A stretch of 64,000 nt of DNA from Rubrivivax sp. Its GTDB lineage: Bacteria > Pseudomonadota > Gammaproteobacteria > Burkholderiales > Burkholderiaceae_C. Under the pieces are notes generated by a model, which made no database searches, was not told the DNA's origin, and was given only the letters and a program-made list of their open reading frames with translations. Position 1 is the first letter of the stretch; each line of letters starts with the position of its first letter. The stretch lies in NCBI GenBank assembly GCA_020248945.1, contig JADCGQ010000001.1:1-64000 (forward strand), written 5' to 3'. Below, piece after piece: positions 1 through 48,674 of this stretch. Made by a program: the position numbers and the translations under genes.

Positions 1-73
1 CCTTGGGCAGCCAGTCTTGCAGCGATGCAGGCAGCAGCATCTCCTGCTGCGGTTCGTACGGGCGATAGCTCAT
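1..73 (-). CDS. IS1182-type transposase, N-terminal fragment (continues left of window)
   Basis: Reading leftwards from the ATG at 73, the first 24 codons translate as MSYRPYEPQQEMLLPASLQD followed by WLPK. This is the characteristic opening of IS1182-group (IS4/IS5-like DDE) transposases, which begin with a 'YRPY.P.Q..LLPPSL.DWLP' segment. The rest, including the DDE catalytic residues, lies outside the window, so I cannot tell whether the gene is intact. The insertion sequence end should fall between 74 and about 136, because the next gene stops at 137, but no terminal inverted repeat can be identified with only one end visible. The family assignment rests on 24 residues. Confidence 0.7.
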   Translation of the reverse strand, partial: MSYRPYEPQQEMLLPASLQDWLPK

Positions 74-136
74 GTTCGATCAACGTCCATGAGGCATGCA
101 GCGCTGTCAGGGACTTCCCTTCTGCCGCCCACGCTC

Positions 137-2827
137 CTAGCCGCGTGGGCGGCCGTCGAGCCAGCGGTCCACCGCGGCGAGCAGGCTGTCCAGATCGATC
201 GGCTTCGTCACGTACTCGTCGAAGCCGGCCGCCTGGGCCCGTGCGCGGTCGGCCGGCATGGCGTTGGCGCTGACGGCGATGACCGGGATGCCCGCCGTCA
301 GCGCATCGGCGCGCAGGCGCGCCAGCACCTCGAAGCCGTCGATGCCCGGCAGCTGGATGTCCAGCAGCACCAGCGCCGGCGGCGCCGCATGGGCCATGGC
401 CAGGCCCTCCTCGGGCAGCGCGGCGAGCTCCAGCTCGATGCCCGGCCGTTGACCCAGCATGCCCTGCATCAGCAGCCGGTTGACCTCGTTGTCCTCGATG
501 TAGAGCACCCGCCTGCGGCCGGCCGGGGCCGGCGTCGGCGCTGGCTGCGCCTGCGGCGGCGGTGCCGGCAGCTCGGCCGGGCGCGGCGCCACGGGCTCGG
601 CCGCCTCGGCCAGCTCGAACCAGAACTCGCTGCCCAGCCCGGGCCTGCTGCTGACGCCGATGCGCCCGCCCATCAGCTCGACCAGCCACTTGCTCAGCGC
701 CAGGCCGATGCCGGTGCCCTCGACCGTGCCGGACTCGGCGCCCAGGCGTTCGAACGGATGGAACAGGCGAGTCTGTCCCTCGGCATCGAGGCCCGCGCCC
801 TCGTCCTGCACCACCACGCGCACGCGCCCATCGACCCGGTGCCACGACAGCCGCGCCACACCGCCCGCGCGGTTGTACTTGGCGGCGTTGGACAGCAGGT
901 TCAGCAGCACCTGTTTCAGCCGCATCGGGTCGGCCCGGAGCACGCAGTCGCCCGGGCACTGCAACTCCAGGTGCACCTCGTGCTGCGCCATCAGGCCGGC
1001 GACCAGGCCTTCGCACTCGCGGGCCAGCGCGCACAGCTCCACCGGCTGCAACTGCAGCCGCAGCGCACCGGCCTCGATGCGCGCGAGGTCGAGCACATCG
1101 TTGATCAGGTCCAGCAGATGGGCACCGCCCCGCTGCAGCTCGCGCACCCGGTCGCGCTGGCGTGGTGTCAGCGGCTCGGCCGTGTCGCTGGCCAGCAGCT
1201 GGGCGAAGCCGAGCACCGCGTTCAGCGGCGTGCGCAGCTCGTGGCTCATGCGCGACAGGAACTCGCTCTTGGCGCGGCTCAGCCGCTCGGCCTCGTCCTT
1301 GGCGGCGGCCAGCGCCTGCTGTGCCGCCTTGCGCTCGGTGATGTCCCAGCCGTAGCAGGTGAAGCCCTCGAAGCGGCCGTCGGCGTCGAAGCGCGTGATG
1401 CCGTGGTCGGCGACCCAGACGATGCGGCCGTCGGCGCAGACGACGCGGTACTCGAACTCGAACGGCCGCCGCGCTGCGGCGGCGGCGCCCAAGACCGTGC
1501 GGCCCCAGTCCAGGTCGTCCGGGTGCATGCGGTCGCTCCACGGGCGCTGCAGCTCGTCGTCGAGCGGACGCCCGGTGCACTGCAGCCAGCGCTGGTTGAA
1601 CCACACGGCGCGGCCGTTGGCCTCGCCCTGCCAAATGAGCGCCGGCGCCGCATCGGCCATCTGGCGGAAGCGCTCGCCGCTCACGCGCAGGGCTTCGGCG
1701 GCGCGGACATCGGCCGTGACGTCGCGGTAGGTGCGCACCAGGCAGCCGTCGGTGGCGCGCCGCCCCTCCACCTCGAGCAGTTGACCGTCCTTGGTGCGTC
1801 GGCGGTAGCGATCGGGCAAGGCTGCACGCTGGGCCGGATCGTTGAAGGTGCTGTCGTGCGCGAAGTCGCCTCGTGCCACCTGGAACGAGCGCACCTCCTC
1901 GATCGTCGGCCGCTTCCGCAGCAGCGACTCCGGCAGTTCCAGCAGCTCCAGCAGCCGGCGGTTCCAAACCACCGCGCGGCCATCCTGGCCGGTGGTGAAC
2001 ACGCCCTCGTGCAGGCTCTCCAGCGTGAGGGTGAGCGCCTGCGACTGCTCGGCCAGCCGCCGCTCGGCCTCCTTCAGCGGCGTGATGTCGGTCCACAGGC
2101 CGACCGAGCCCGTCAGCGGCCCGCTGGCGCCGGCGATGGGCGTGGCGTTGTTGACGCAATGGCGGCGCGTGCCGTCGGCCGCCCGGAGCGTGATCTCGTA
2201 GGCCTCGCTCTGGCCGCGCCGGCGGCGCTCAATCGTCTCGCGGAACAGCGCCGCGCCGTCCTCGTCGACGAAGTCCCAGATCGGCCGGCCGCGCAGCTGT
2301 TCCAGCGGCAGCGCCAGCAGCCGGCACATCGCCGGGTTGGCGTCGACGGTGCGCTGCTGCTCGTCGATGAACCAGATGCCTTGCTCGGTGCGCTCCACCA
2401 GCAGCCGCAGCATGCGCTGATCGGCCGCCTTGGCGGCCTGCAGCGCCTTGCGCTCGCTGATGTCGGTGAGCACCACCACGGCGCCGCCCGTGGCGGTGCG
2501 GCGGCGGCGGATCTCGACGGTGCGGCCGTCGCGCCGGCGCTGCTCGAGCGGCGGTGCGTCGCCGGGCAGGGCCAGCCACTGGCGGTGCCAGCGGGCTTCG
2601 GCGCGTGTGCGGCTGATCTCGCCGCTGCGCAGCAACTCGCGCAGTAGCTCGAGCAGCGGGCGGCCTTCCTGGGCGGCGTCGGCCCCGAGGCCGGCCAGAT
2701 CGAGGAAGTGCTCGTTGCGCGACAGCAGCCGGGCATCGGCACCGAACACCGCCAGGCCCAGCTCGGTGTGTGCGTACAGCAGGTGCAGCAGTTCGCTGCT
2801 GTCGGGTGGAGGTGGCGCGGTGCTCAC
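137..2827 (-). CDS. PAS-domain hybrid sensor histidine kinase with C-terminal receiver
   Basis: This is a cytoplasmic two-component hybrid kinase of 896 residues with no membrane segments. It has four PAS-like sensor modules (roughly 10-120, 145-270, 275-375 and 385-505), then a HisKA domain with phospho-acceptor His529 in SHELRTPLNAVLG, an HATPase domain with N-box and GTGIGLAL motif, and a C-terminal receiver whose acceptor is Asp823 in LLDIQLPG. The open frame extends to a TTG at 2881. I chose the GTG at 2827 because the product then begins MSTAPPPPDSSELL, the region upstream looks non-coding, and it leaves room for promoters between this gene and the divergent tkt. The final output could be the internal receiver or another regulator, as no partner is adjacent. 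Signal unknown. Confidence 0.9.
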   Translation of the reverse strand: MSTAPPPPDSSELLHLLYAHTELGLAVFGADARLLSRNEHFLDLAGLGADAAQEGRPLLELLRELLRSGEISRTRAEARWHRQWLALPGDAPPLEQRRRDGRTVEIRRRRTATGGAVVVLTDISERKALQAAKAADQRMLRLLVERTEQGIWFIDEQQRTVDANPAMCRLLALPLEQLRGRPIWDFVDEDGAALFRETIERRRRGQSEAYEITLRAADGTRRHCVNNATPIAGASGPLTGSVGLWTDITPLKEAERRLAEQSQALTLTLESLHEGVFTTGQDGRAVVWNRRLLELLELPESLLRKRPTIEEVRSFQVARGDFAHDSTFNDPAQRAALPDRYRRRTKDGQLLEVEGRRATDGCLVRTYRDVTADVRAAEALRVSGERFRQMADAAPALIWQGEANGRAVWFNQRWLQCTGRPLDDELQRPWSDRMHPDDLDWGRTVLGAAAAARRPFEFEYRVVCADGRIVWVADHGITRFDADGRFEGFTCYGWDITERKAAQQALAAAKDEAERLSRAKSEFLSRMSHELRTPLNAVLGFAQLLASDTAEPLTPRQRDRVRELQRGGAHLLDLINDVLDLARIEAGALRLQLQPVELCALARECEGLVAGLMAQHEVHLELQCPGDCVLRADPMRLKQVLLNLLSNAAKYNRAGGVARLSWHRVDGRVRVVVQDEGAGLDAEGQTRLFHPFERLGAESGTVEGTGIGLALSKWLVELMGGRIGVSSRPGLGSEFWFELAEAAEPVAPRPAELPAPPPQAQPAPTPAPAGRRRVLYIEDNEVNRLLMQGMLGQRPGIELELAALPEEGLAMAHAAPPALVLLDIQLPGIDGFEVLARLRADALTAGIPVIAVSANAMPADRARAQAAGFDEYVTKPIDLDSLLAAVDRWLDGRPRG

Positions 2828-46030: not shown

Positions 46031-46235
46031 GCGCCTTCTCCCCTGCCTTCAGCCGGTACACGGTGCCGCAGTACGGGCACTTGCCTTCACCGGTGGAGGC
46101 GACGTCGATGAAGACCTTCGGGTGGCTGCTCCACAAGGGCATCTTCGGGTTCGGGCAGTAGATGACGCCCGGGCCTTGCAGCTCGGCTGCGGTCAGCTCG
46201 ACGACGGCGCGGGGTTCGGTGTCGGCGCGGCTCAT
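46017..46235 (-). CDS. small zinc-finger protein (zf-CHCC family, NDUFS6-like)
   Basis: The 72-residue protein contains the metal-binding pattern C-x(8)-H...C-x2-C: VIYCPNPKMPLWSSHPKVFI followed by CPYCGTVYRL. This matches the CHCC zinc finger found in mitochondrial complex I subunit NDUFS6 and in small conserved bacterial proteins beside ilvE in Burkholderiales. Its function in bacteria is not settled. The ATG at 46235 overlaps the ilvE stop (ATGA) and is favoured over the ATG at 46250. Co-translated with ilvE. Confidence 0.88.
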   Translation of the reverse strand: MSRADTEPRAVVELTAAELQGPGVIYCPNPKMPLWSSHPKVFIDVASTGEGKCPYCGTVYRLKAGEKAHGAH

Positions 46236-47155
46236 ACCAGCGTCAGCCACTCGGCGTACTTGGGGTTGCGGCCGTTCACGATGTCGAAGAACGCGGTCTG
46301 AATCTTCTCGGTGATGGGCCCGCGGCTGCCCGCGCCCAGCTCGATGCGGTCGAGCTCGCGGATCGGCGTGACTTCGGCGGCCGTGCCGGTGAAGAAGGCC
46401 TCGTCGCAGATGTAGACCTCGTCGCGCGTGATGCGCTTCTCGACCAGCTTCAGGCCCAGGTCCTGGCAGATCGCGAAGATCGTGTCGCGCGTGATGCCGT
46501 TCAGCGCACCGGCCGACAGATCCGGCGTGTAGACCACGCCCTTCTTGATGACGAACAGGTTCTCGCCGGCGCCTTCGGAGACAAAGCCCGAGGGGTCGAG
46601 CAGCAGCGCCTCGTCGTAGCCCTCGTCGGTGGCTTCCATGTTGGCCAGGATCGAGTTCGTGTAGTTGCTCACCGCCTTGGCCTGCGTCATGGTGATGTTG
46701 ACGTGGTGGCGCGTGTAGCTGCTGGTCTTGACGCGGATGCCGCGCTTGAGGCCCTCTTCACCGAGGTAGGCGCCCCAGGCCCAGGCCGCCACCATCAGGT
46801 GGATGGTGTTGCCCTTGGGGCTGACGCCGAGCTTCTTGTCGCCGATCCAGGTGAGCGGGCGCAGGTAGCAGCTCTCGAGCTTGTTCTCGCGCACCACGGT
46901 GCGCTGGGCTTCCATCACCTCTTCATGGGTGAAGGGGATCTTCATGCGCAGGATCTTCGCGCTGTTGAAGAGGCGCTCGGTGTGTTCACGAAGCCGAAAT
47001 ATCGCGGTGCCCCGAGCCGTGTGGTAGGCCCGCACGCCCTCGAAGGCGCCGCAGCCGTAGTGCAGCGTGTGCGACAGCACGTGGATCTTGGCGTCGCGCC
47101 AGTCGACGAGCGTGCCGTCCATCCAGATCTTGCCGTCGCGGTCGGACATCGACAT
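46232..47155 (-). CDS. ilvE: branched-chain amino acid aminotransferase
   Basis: This pyridoxal-phosphate enzyme (fold type IV) interconverts leucine, isoleucine and valine with their 2-oxo acids. The 307-residue product is the usual length. It begins DRDGKIWMDGTLVDWRDA and shows the SHTLHYGCGAFEGVRAY segment, the catalytic lysine region TMTQAKAVSNYTNS, EALLLDPSGFVSEGAGENLF and GITRDTIFAI. The start ATG has GGAG upstream. The leader contains a -10-like TAGAAT whose first bases belong to the border of a large structured element (47192-47465). Confidence 0.96.
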   Translation of the reverse strand: MSMSDRDGKIWMDGTLVDWRDAKIHVLSHTLHYGCGAFEGVRAYHTARGTAIFRLREHTERLFNSAKILRMKIPFTHEEVMEAQRTVVRENKLESCYLRPLTWIGDKKLGVSPKGNTIHLMVAAWAWGAYLGEEGLKRGIRVKTSSYTRHHVNITMTQAKAVSNYTNSILANMEATDEGYDEALLLDPSGFVSEGAGENLFVIKKGVVYTPDLSAGALNGITRDTIFAICQDLGLKLVEKRITRDEVYICDEAFFTGTAAEVTPIRELDRIELGAGSRGPITEKIQTAFFDIVNGRNPKYAEWLTLV

Positions 47156-47188
47156 GGGGGTTCTCCAGCTTCGAAAGGTGAGTCGGGG

Positions 47189-47194
47189 ATTCTA
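47189..47194 (-). promoter_or_regulatory. candidate ilvE -10 box at the element border
   Basis: On the minus strand TAGAAT lies 34 bases before the ilvE ATG. Its TAG comes from the CTAG at the edge of the 274-bp element and AAT from flanking DNA. The place for a -35 (47212-47217) is inside the element's terminal stem and reads CCGATC, a poor match. The same hexamer precedes tkt. Confidence 0.4.
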
Positions 47195-47465
47195 GGAGTC
47201 TGCGCGGCAGAGATCGGCACCCGCGCCGGGGCACCCAAGGCCGCTGGCGTAGGCGCGTCGCGCGGCCCGGGCTTGCCGCCCGGGCAAGCGGCGCAACGCC
47301 CGCCAGCGGCCTTGGGTGCCCCGGCCCTTCGGGTTGGGCCTGCATCGGGGCGCAAGCAGTGTTGCGACGCTGGCCTGGGCGCACGCCCAGGCGGCGCGCC
47401 GCGCCTTGCCTTCGCCCCGATGCAGGCCCAACGCGGGTGCCGATCTCTGCCGCACAGACTCCTAG
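47192..47465. mobile_element. 274-bp foldback element with cloverleaf inverted-repeat architecture
   Basis: Outer stem: 47192-47225 pairs with 47432-47465 in 33 of 34 positions, and the one mismatch is a G-U pair in minus-strand RNA. Inside, three self-complementary blocks follow one another without spacer. Arm 1 is 47226-47324, with a perfect 24-bp stem (47226-47249 / 47301-47324) and an inner hairpin at 47271-47289. The mini-hairpin CCC-TTC-GGG is 47325-47333. Arm 2 is 47334-47431, with a perfect 19-bp stem (47334-47352 / 47413-47431) and an inner 8-bp hairpin 47373-47392. Both borders read CTAG. There is no significant coding frame. A MITE-like mobile element is my preferred reading; a structured RNA in the ilvE leader is the alternative. 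Confidence 0.75.
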
Positions 47466-47866
47466 GCAGCGGCGCGTTGCAGCTCCCACTGCGTGAGGTG
47501 GCCGTCCTCGAGCGTGAGCTGCACCGTGTCGCCGCCGGTGTCGGTCCAGGCCCAGGTCTCGCTCGGGCTCTGGGCGTCGCCCGCCACGCGGCGGCCGAGC
47601 GAGCGCGTGAGCACCAGCACCTCGGGCAGCTTCATGCCGCGCTTGAGCTTGGCGTTCAGCATCACGGCGTTGGCCACGTGGCCCACCGGGTTGCTGGCGG
47701 CGATGCGCAGCACGCGCATCGCGCGGCTGAACTGCAGCAGCAGCCAGAACACGATGACGGTGATCGCCAGCACCACGCCCGGCCAGCCGTACGAGGCCCA
47801 GCCGACGGCGATGGCGGCCACCGCGAGGCCCCAGCCGACCCAGACACCGCCCAGGCCGCCCTTCAT
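47462..47866 (-). CDS. two-helix inner-membrane protein, function unknown
   Basis: The 134-residue protein has two adjacent hydrophobic helices near the N terminus (VWVGWGLAVAAIAVGWA and GVVLAITVIVFWLLLQF), an amphipathic segment (SRAMRVLRIAASNPVGHVAN), and a soluble end containing WAWTDTGGDTVQLTLEDGHL. ATG 47866 is preferred over the longer frame from 48079, which antisenses a glycosyltransferase. The stop TAG at 47462-47464 is formed by the border CTAG of the adjacent foldback element, so that element abuts or defines the 3' end. I do not recognise a family. Confidence 0.75.
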   Translation of the reverse strand: MKGGLGGVWVGWGLAVAAIAVGWASYGWPGVVLAITVIVFWLLLQFSRAMRVLRIAASNPVGHVANAVMLNAKLKRGMKLPEVLVLTRSLGRRVAGDAQSPSETWAWTDTGGDTVQLTLEDGHLTQWELQRAAA

Positions 47867-47894
47867 GGGCGTGGCCTCGCTGACAATCTCGACG

Positions 47895-48674
47895 ATGGAT
47901 GCTGTGCAGACATGGGTGATCAATCTCGACCGCGCGCCGGACCGGCTGGCCCGCGTGCGCGAGCAGCTCGATCGGCTGCAGATGCCCTTCACGCGGCTGC
48001 CGGCGGTGGATGCCCGCCAGTTCACGCCGGCGCAGCGGGCCCTGCTCGACGAAGCCACCTTCCACCGCCGCCACGGCATGACGCCGCTGCCCGGTGAGCT
48101 GGGATGTTATCTCTCGCACATCGAGGTCATGCGCCACCTGCTGGCCAGCACCGCCGAAGCGGCGCTGGTGCTGGAAGACGACGTGCGGCTGCACGACACG
48201 CTGCCCGCGGTGGTGGCGGCCCTGATGAAGCAGCCTGCGCACTGGGACGTGGTCAAGCTCTCGGCCGTGCACTCTGGCACGCCGGTGGCGGTGGCCGATC
48301 TGGGCCAGGGTCACGCCTTGGCGGTGATGCTGTCCAAGTGCACCGGCTCCAGCGCCTACCTGATGAACCGCCGTGCCGCTGAGGCCTGGCTGCGCAGCCC
48401 CGGCGGCCTGCTGCCGATGCAGCTGCCCTACGACCACGCCTTCGACCGCGCCTGGATCTACGGCCTGAAGCAGCGCCTCGTGGTGCCCACGCCCTGCGGG
48501 CACGACGACCAGGTGGCCTCGACCATCGGTGCGCCGGCGAACATGCCCTCGCGCAAGTTCAAGGGCCTGAAGCGGCTGCCCACGCACCTGTGGCGGGTGG
48601 GCAACGAGCTGCGCCGCGTGGCCTATGGCCTGGGGCAGCTGCTGCGCCAGAAGCTGGGCGGCGCCGCCCGCTGA
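47895..48674 (+). CDS. family 25 glycosyltransferase (LPS biosynthesis type)
   Basis: The 259-residue protein has the GT25 signature: the opening TWVINLDRAPDRLARVREQL, the GCYLSHIEVMRHLLAS segment, the acidic LVLEDDVRLHDTL metal site, and LPYDHAFDRAW near the end. Such enzymes add galactose or related sugars to lipooligosaccharide. The gene is isolated from other surface-sugar genes and divergent from the two-helix membrane protein 28 bases away. The frame also opens at 47493 but is antisense there to the neighbour; ATG 47895 matches the family start. Confidence 0.88.
   Translation: MDAVQTWVINLDRAPDRLARVREQLDRLQMPFTRLPAVDARQFTPAQRALLDEATFHRRHGMTPLPGELGCYLSHIEVMRHLLASTAEAALVLEDDVRLHDTLPAVVAALMKQPAHWDVVKLSAVHSGTPVAVADLGQGHALAVMLSKCTGSSAYLMNRRAAEAWLRSPGGLLPMQLPYDHAFDRAWIYGLKQRLVVPTPCGHDDQVASTIGAPANMPSRKFKGLKRLPTHLWRVGNELRRVAYGLGQLLRQKLGGAAR

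Follow-up and report, generated by a model that had tools for sequence, protein, structure and literature searches.

Locus and folded structure

The window, by which we mean the whole stretch of 64,000 nucleotides from Rubrivivax sp. that was analysed, encodes on its minus strand the branched-chain amino acid aminotransferase IlvE. Upstream of ilvE lies a second minus-strand gene, which has no NCBIfam match; in relatives a similar gene ends before ilvE, as judged by eye. Between both genes a cloverleaf of inverted repeats is found, the parts of which are as follows.

46232–47155, minus strand: ilvE, branched-chain amino acid aminotransferase (TIGR01122, 444.9 bits, cut-off 245.55)
47189–47194, minus strand: TAGAAT, a −10-like box upstream of ilvE, putative promoter element
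47192–47225, plus strand: outer stem, 5' side, pairing with 47432–47465
47226–47324, plus strand: arm A, a 24-bp perfect stem with looped tip (fold; covariation in helices 2–4)
47251–47256, plus strand: arm A tip motif, 5' half, AGGCGC
47293–47297, plus strand: arm A tip motif, 3' half, GCAAC (invariant in 16 of 16 representatives)
47325–47333, plus strand: central CCC-TTC-GGG mini-hairpin of the junction (CCC and GGG triplets invariant, 16 of 16)
47334–47431, plus strand: arm B, a 19-bp perfect stem with looped tip (fold; covariation in helices 6–9)
47361–47365, minus strand: arm B tip motif, 3' half, GCAAC on the minus strand (motif pattern search)
47401–47406, minus strand: arm B tip motif, 5' half, AGGCGC on the minus strand
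47432–47465, plus strand: outer stem, 3' side, partner of 47192–47225
47462–48079, minus strand: upstream gene, ending in CTAG

The sequence-only reading had described a 274-bp cloverleaf without unpaired linkers, located 36 bases upstream of the ilvE start, and this distance is correct. Recomputation returned 33 of 34 pairs for the outer stem, the exception (C47203 × A47454) being a G-U on the minus strand, as well as all 24 pairs of the arm A stem (47226–47249/47301–47324) and all 19 pairs of the arm B stem (47334–47352/47413–47431). The small hairpin was found as described and reads CCCTTCGGG. While the linker-free tiling stands, the extent of 274 bp does not hold for the element as such: the outermost 4 + 4 bases are a duplicated CTAG, and the element comprises 47196–47461.

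For the minus-strand RNA of 47180–47480 a folding energy of −264.5 kcal/mol was calculated (z −19.8, equalled by none of 100 shuffles). The DNA fold of the plus strand gave z −15.3 (0 of 100 shuffles as good), and RNA folds are very stable on either strand. Chance GC-rich palindromes or an artefact of assembly might be considered, given the high GC content of the region and an assembly that breaks up at repeats. However, the z value and the recurrence of this architecture in further assemblies, among them contigs of 1.8 and 2.2 Mb, leave this explanation a practically negligible probability; chance was rejected, in agreement with the earlier statement that such tiling is not expected from it. 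A known Rfam family was rejected as well: the element matched none at gathering score, and the sole match of one Rfam search was a microRNA family (27.8 of 268 bits, E 0.015).

Insertion upstream of ilvE

Comparison with empty sites, other copies and insertion sequences (ISs) defined the limits of the element.

47196–47461: non-autonomous element, 266 bp, delimited by the empty site and by 274/275-bp copies elsewhere that include both CTAGs
47192–47195: target-site duplication CTAG, ilvE side
47462–47465: target-site duplication CTAG, far side, including the stop codon, TAG, of the upstream gene on the minus strand
47196–47211, plus strand: terminal inverted repeat GAGTCTGCGCGGCAGA of IS1182/ISKpn6 type, like the ends of ISs at loci L171 and L228–L232 and of ISKpn6 (L338)
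47446–47461, minus strand: terminal inverted repeat GAGTCTGTGCGGCAGA, located exactly by an end search and by comparison of IS ends

In one relative (L292) the site upstream of ilvE is empty. Its junction, GCCGCTGCCTAGAATC, contains a single CTAG followed by AATC, whereas the window has, with the same flanks on the minus strand, GCCGCTGC-CTAG, the 266 bp and CTAG-AATC. One CTAG in the relative and two in the window identify CTAG as a 4-bp target duplication; because CTAG is palindromic, it had been taken as part of the stem. For a copy in genome G041, too, an empty site could be identified: its joined flanks correspond to a contiguous stretch of genome G031 with one CTAG (L354). The same flanks are contiguous in the window's genome too, where the site reads CTGTAG (L355), and G041 itself matches the joined flanks in two pieces. 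The element contains no transposase gene and is too short for one.

The structure is a miniature non-autonomous transposon (MITE). That it might be a structured non-autonomous mobile element was among the suggestions made from the sequence, and it is borne out by the two empty sites, by copies at other loci, by ends shared with IS1182 and by paired changes in the stems.

Of 21 same-genus ilvE upstream regions 19 were read; two (L285, L287) were dropped as their orientation was not assigned. The sequence TA(A/G)AAT lies less than 100 bases from the ilvE start in all 19, and at 33–48 bases before it in 15; CTAGAAT is present in eight. The element sits in the CTAG of this box region, with the box staying on the ilvE side and the end of the element as its new upstream neighbour. 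The short distance to ilvE had also suggested a leader RNA or attenuator belonging to this gene. However, the pair of ends occurs in none of the 19 regions (L299 has one weak, single end-like match) and other copies are situated at other places. The structure is thus not conserved at ilvE, and this reading, which we consider very improbable, was rejected.

Copies and shorter forms

The similarity search proposed earlier, run in this genome and in relatives, found copies, and the element is therefore not unique. One further copy is present in the same genome (G000, contig C48, 11882–12156, 78% identity). Some match was obtained in 74 of 148 genomes searched, the window's genome included, many of the matches being partial or weak. 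Among the matches listed in this search at least 272 of the 274 bases are covered in 11 genomes, again including the window's; only rows of at least 272 bases were counted as copies. The exact 24-base end pattern occurred in 11 of 100 genomes of a second search, with 32 forward and 30 reverse matches (62) in G041. A strict pattern scan of the genome collection gave no match and a degenerate one at least 116 stretches, while a loose search with the ends alone returned mostly noise (73 and 98 matches vs 61 and 61 in controls). The full cloverleaf was found, among the matches listed, in Ramlibacter rhizophilus and Pseudorhodoferax, and the listed records with the pattern also include MAGs labelled Rubrivivax sp. 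The plasmids, phages and E. coli genomes searched matched neither the element nor the copy from G041.

From the loci we collected 79 distinct pieces, with both ends required and sizes of 40–340 bp allowed; one of them (L233) is an IS remnant. The pieces fall into 47 of 274 or 275 bp and 32 of 56 to 220 bp, i.e. every piece above 220 bp has 274 or 275 bp although up to 340 bp were allowed. Among the shorter pieces, forms with one arm (175 bp) or no arm (60 and 56 bp) lie between CTAGs at other loci. They look like deletions of arms, presumably at short direct repeats. These forms either moved as such, in which case both arms are not needed, or they lost their arms after insertion.

Shorter palindromic elements of 166–220 bp with ISKpn6-type ends were observed, among the matches listed, in Luteimonas, Rhodanobacter, a Gammaproteobacteria isolate, Proteobacteria and an Acidobacteria MAG. 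The 168-bp form of Luteimonas had no match in the plasmids searched. Such short palindromic elements (L129, L131, L142, L186, L189 and similar ones) have internal loops of their own, which by eye look conserved.

Of the 79 pieces, 14 were left out and 65 are bordered by CTAG on either side. In 52 of these 65 copies an open frame of at least 100 codons ends exactly in the TAG of the CTAG, vs 55% at random positions. As CTAG may be enriched at stop codons in GC-rich genomes anyway, this number describes the landing sites and is no proof of an active choice.

Relation to IS1182

Cupriavidus necator has a 1538-bp IS bounded by the same ends; its transposase of 441 aa passes the IS1182 model (357 bits, cut-off 270). 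Same-genus genomes contain ISs with 64–70% identical transposases and the same ends; one of these ISs (L231) has an internal stop codon. An IS of this kind is also found at the beginning of the window.

1–140, minus strand: end of an IS1182 (ISKpn6-type) IS, with the end repeat CTAGGAGCGTGGGCGGCAGAAGGG at 117–140 and the transposase start codon at 71–73

The transposase-start ends of ISKpn6-type ISs open or close contigs C17, C37, C60, C64 and C77, and apparent opposite ends are located on contigs C22, C41 and C45 of this genome. ISKpn6-type IS1182 is multi-copy in this genome, the assembly breaks at its copies, and the window begins inside one of them.

The nearest named relative of the IS is ISKpn6 (68.6% at the DNA level over 82% of the query), the ends of which, read directly, are CTAGGAGCCTGCGCGGCAGA... 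and ...TCTGCCGCGCAGACTCCTAG. Because its ends are those of ISKpn6-type IS1182, the 266-bp element is assigned as a MITE of IS1182. The match between IS and MITE spans only about 20 bases per end, and the element itself, being without an IS1182-model transposase, is filed as an IS derivative and not as an IS.

The IS1182 model was run on 12 element-bearing genomes. Ten had some match, and only in G061 was the cut-off exceeded, whereas no match over the cut-off was found in the other 11; the IS1182 of G061 has other ends. G054 contains a broken ISKpn6-type copy, and the window's genome (G000) has IS fragments and one distant relative and nothing else of IS1182 type. G029 and G015 gave no match to the model. 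In the 3-contig assembly of G041 the model had 18 matches, none over the cut-off (best E 5.1e-14), and the transposase search for a close ISKpn6-type enzyme returned 0 matches. G041 is the richest in ends among the genomes of the end-pattern search; with no close transposase found, its helper was lost, was missed or is something else.

Two further observations concern the ISs. At L233 (1080–1258) a remnant of 179 bp, in which the two IS1182 ends and part of the transposase start are preserved, directly adjoins another, longer IS copy. Many contigs of Caballeronia calidae (e.g. L112, L113, L117, L134) have an ISKpn6-type IS end 579–602 from the contig end; among the matches listed, these contig ends are a further multi-copy IS.

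A similar cloverleaf within other ends

Inspection of 20 loci from the matches listed in the 148-genome search revealed 11 complete, similar cloverleaf elements with other outer stems. Two loci (L018, L021) have ISKpn6-type ends, and seven without a complete element were dropped (L003, L004, L025, L028, L031, L032, L034). The outer stems of the 11 begin with AGAGCCTGTGAAG..., AGAGGTTGAGAGG..., AGAAGCTGTGAACG..., AGAAGGTGTGAAAG... or CTAGGGCCTGTTCAC..., of which the third and fourth are mutually alike. A similar cloverleaf occurs within at least four kinds of ends besides the ISKpn6 type, which indicates that the cloverleaf interior travels with different ends.

Nine of these elements are 267–269 bp in length; the other two (329 and 337 bp) have enlarged arms or an enlarged central hairpin. 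The tip motif pattern AGGCGC...GCAAC is present in the first arm of all 11 and in the second arm of nine, the misses being L023 and L033, the latter with a different fold of its second arm. Ten of the 11 do not end in CTAG, and 7 of these are flanked by the same 4 bp on either side, TCAG or TGAG, in a register chosen by eye.

The other ends probably belong to other IS1182-like transposases, which are putative partners. The search for an autonomous IS with the second end type (AGAGCCTGTGAAG...) gave none, and most other IS1182-like loci tried gave no convincing end repeats. The IS1182 ends of G061, GAGGCTGTGTGAGAACCC, agree with a third type, GAAGCTGTGAACGAACCC, at 14 of 18 positions, which is suggestive only. 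G029 contains 42 forward and 42 reverse matches to the second end type (AGAGCYTGTGAAGAYATGMATC, at most 2 mismatches). A number of these ends are paired about 52 bp apart and form armless hairpins, e.g. C73:46205–46256.

Paired changes and conserved positions

Sixteen representatives with pairwise identities of 56–89% (median 72%) were aligned, and a consensus structure was derived by RNAalifold. At paired columns 1644 of 1707 cells stay paired (96.3%, vs 81.4% in shuffles), although the consensus leans towards these 16 sequences because it derives from the same alignment. Changes on both sides were found in 62 of 107 pairs (33.4 in shuffles), and cells with a double change number 236 (70.6 in shuffles), counts which kinship among the sequences inflates. 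None of 500 shuffles reaches any of the three measures. When structures were slid along the alignment only 35–43% of the cells pair. The window copy's own fold, projected onto the alignment, still pairs 90.7%.

The bases which surround the junction are invariant or nearly so in the 16 representatives. At the arm tips the consensus-unpaired columns A61, C64, A107 and A108 are invariant in all 16. The tip motif, searched as a loose pattern, is present in arm A of all 16 representatives; in inverted form it occurs in arm B of 15 of them, and in L009 the pattern fits in both directions. In L010 (1501–1775) the arm B tip is inverted with respect to the other 15, which looks like a flip of the inverted-repeat loop. 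Compensatory changes, and copies of the same length and fold in relatives, are thus what was found in place of the isolated or shrunken structure that would have spoken against the sequence-only reading; shorter deletion forms exist as well.

Paired changes may, however, also come from mutation. Template switching, i.e. quasi-palindrome correction, could keep a MITE palindromic which became so by chance, without any function. Standard pairs with only one partner changed are few (31 cells) compared with those in which both have changed (236 cells), and G-T cells (40) are not in excess of other non-Watson-Crick cells (62), both as such correction would leave them. Arms apparently lost at short direct repeats (by eye) are what is expected of DNA palindromes, and the flipped tip in L010 also speaks for this reading. 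Yet correction should erase the tip loops too, and the four unpaired tip columns are invariant; the length is constant, at 274/275 in all 47 long pieces and 267–269 in 9 of 11 elements with other ends; and the small hairpin and the tip motif are kept while the arm stems change. We regard mutation without function as a possible but on balance unlikely origin of the pairing.

A structured RNA, made on read-through from either neighbour gene and serving as RNase III substrate, 3' end stabiliser or attenuator of the upstream gene, has to be weighed too. The RNA folds are very stable on both strands, and from the 52 frames that end in CTAG many copies may lie in the 3' ends of transcripts. Excerpts of a review describe RNA-level roles of other bacterial MITEs (PMC2229807). 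With one conserved T-G column left out, mismatch cells in arm A are 26 G-T vs 1 A-C, as would fit selection on one RNA strand, but the outer stem (4 vs 9) and arm B (10 vs 9) do not fit. Over the 16 folds there is no overall strand preference, with 69 GU pairs on one strand and 70 on the other, and since the two arms carry one motif in opposite orientations, neither strand can be called the sense strand. The Rfam result speaks against an RNA as well. The signal for one strand from the G-T and A-C counts is mixed, as is that for folding on both strands, and a role as RNA appears to us slightly less probable still than mutation.

Proposed mechanism

As a whole, the findings are best explained by a MITE that is moved in trans by an IS1182 transposase, has a fold which aids the element, and has exchanged the sequence upstream of ilvE; we give this reading a probability of roughly 0.87. 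The ends would be recognised, and the element moved, by an IS1182 transposase, for example by that encoded from base 73 on the minus strand of the window. The same enzyme would insert it at CTAG with duplication of these 4 bp. If a TAG stop codon lies within the CTAG, it would be restored by the duplication, and the insertion would cause little harm. At ilvE, the sequence upstream of the −10-like box would have been replaced by the end of the element.

Less firmly, we suggest that the element benefits from the folded nucleic acid itself and that the inner cloverleaf is kept for this reason. It is retained with different end types and has no preferred strand overall, which points to a benefit for the element itself. 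In its most likely form this would be a folded single-stranded or cruciform DNA, which brings the ends close to each other or offers its arm tips to a host factor for binding. From the sequence comparisons we favour such a role as folded DNA, with palindrome-correcting mutation and a role as RNA as live rivals. It is tempting to go further and to regard the cloverleaf, and not the ends, as the selected unit. This would be a portable four-way-junction cassette, some 200 bases long, whose two arm tips carry the motif in inverted orientation. Five or more kinds of ends would have acquired it, and it would act via a host factor common to these bacteria, as folded DNA or as strand-blind RNA, to raise transposition or to protect the element. 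This extension is speculative, and we hold it to be rather doubtful.

An element that inserts at CTAG can leave a restored stop codon behind and, in the same step, exchange the upstream half of a promoter-like region, here that of ilvE. The length, the small hairpin and the tip motif are held while most pairs of the arm stems change, and the cloverleaf recurs with different transposon ends. Dozens of natural variants make it directly testable whether the fold is selected or a by-product of palindrome mutation.

Comparison with known elements

A MITE with the ends of an IS is a known kind of element; the unusual part is the folded interior. No published description of the element was found in the open-licence literature searched. 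Integron attC sites, to which the cloverleaf may be likened, consist of structured DNA in which arms pair and unpaired bases are conserved.

With the ISKpn6 group of IS1182 the element shares the terminal repeats CTAGGAG..TG.GCGGCAGA and the CTAG at both outer ends. It differs in having no transposase, in its length of 266 bp vs about 1.5 kb and in its unrelated and folded interior. For ISPse1, another IS1182 member, the tabulated value of 4 (excerpt of PMC3281130) is read here as the length of the duplication. In the part of PMC8027508 consulted the target of ISPsy36 (IS1182) is GGCC and that of ISPsy32 CTAG, and a passage of PMC6053426 mentions ISPsy36 and an unrelated 102-bp MITE.

Bacterial MITEs are described in excerpts of PMC2229807 as elements of about 100–200 bp with long stem loops, mostly simple hairpins, from which the cloverleaf departs. 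As covered there, Correia/NEMIS, ERIC, RUP and YPAL/RU-2 share with it the small size, the lack of a transposase gene, the terminal inverted repeats and long-stem transcripts, and Correia elements the target duplication as well. In contrast to those elements, as far as these excerpts describe them, three hairpins stand here on a closing stem without unpaired linkers, and one kind of interior is common to several end types. The CIR repeats of Caulobacter, in the same source, also fold with two long arms; these are joined by a linker and the repeats are set apart from those with paired ends, whereas here the ends pair. REPINs, according to a part of PMC3116915, are likewise non-autonomous and built from paired inverted units that form hairpins, but they are linked to RAYT transposases and REP sequences, while the element described here has IS1182 ends with a target duplication.
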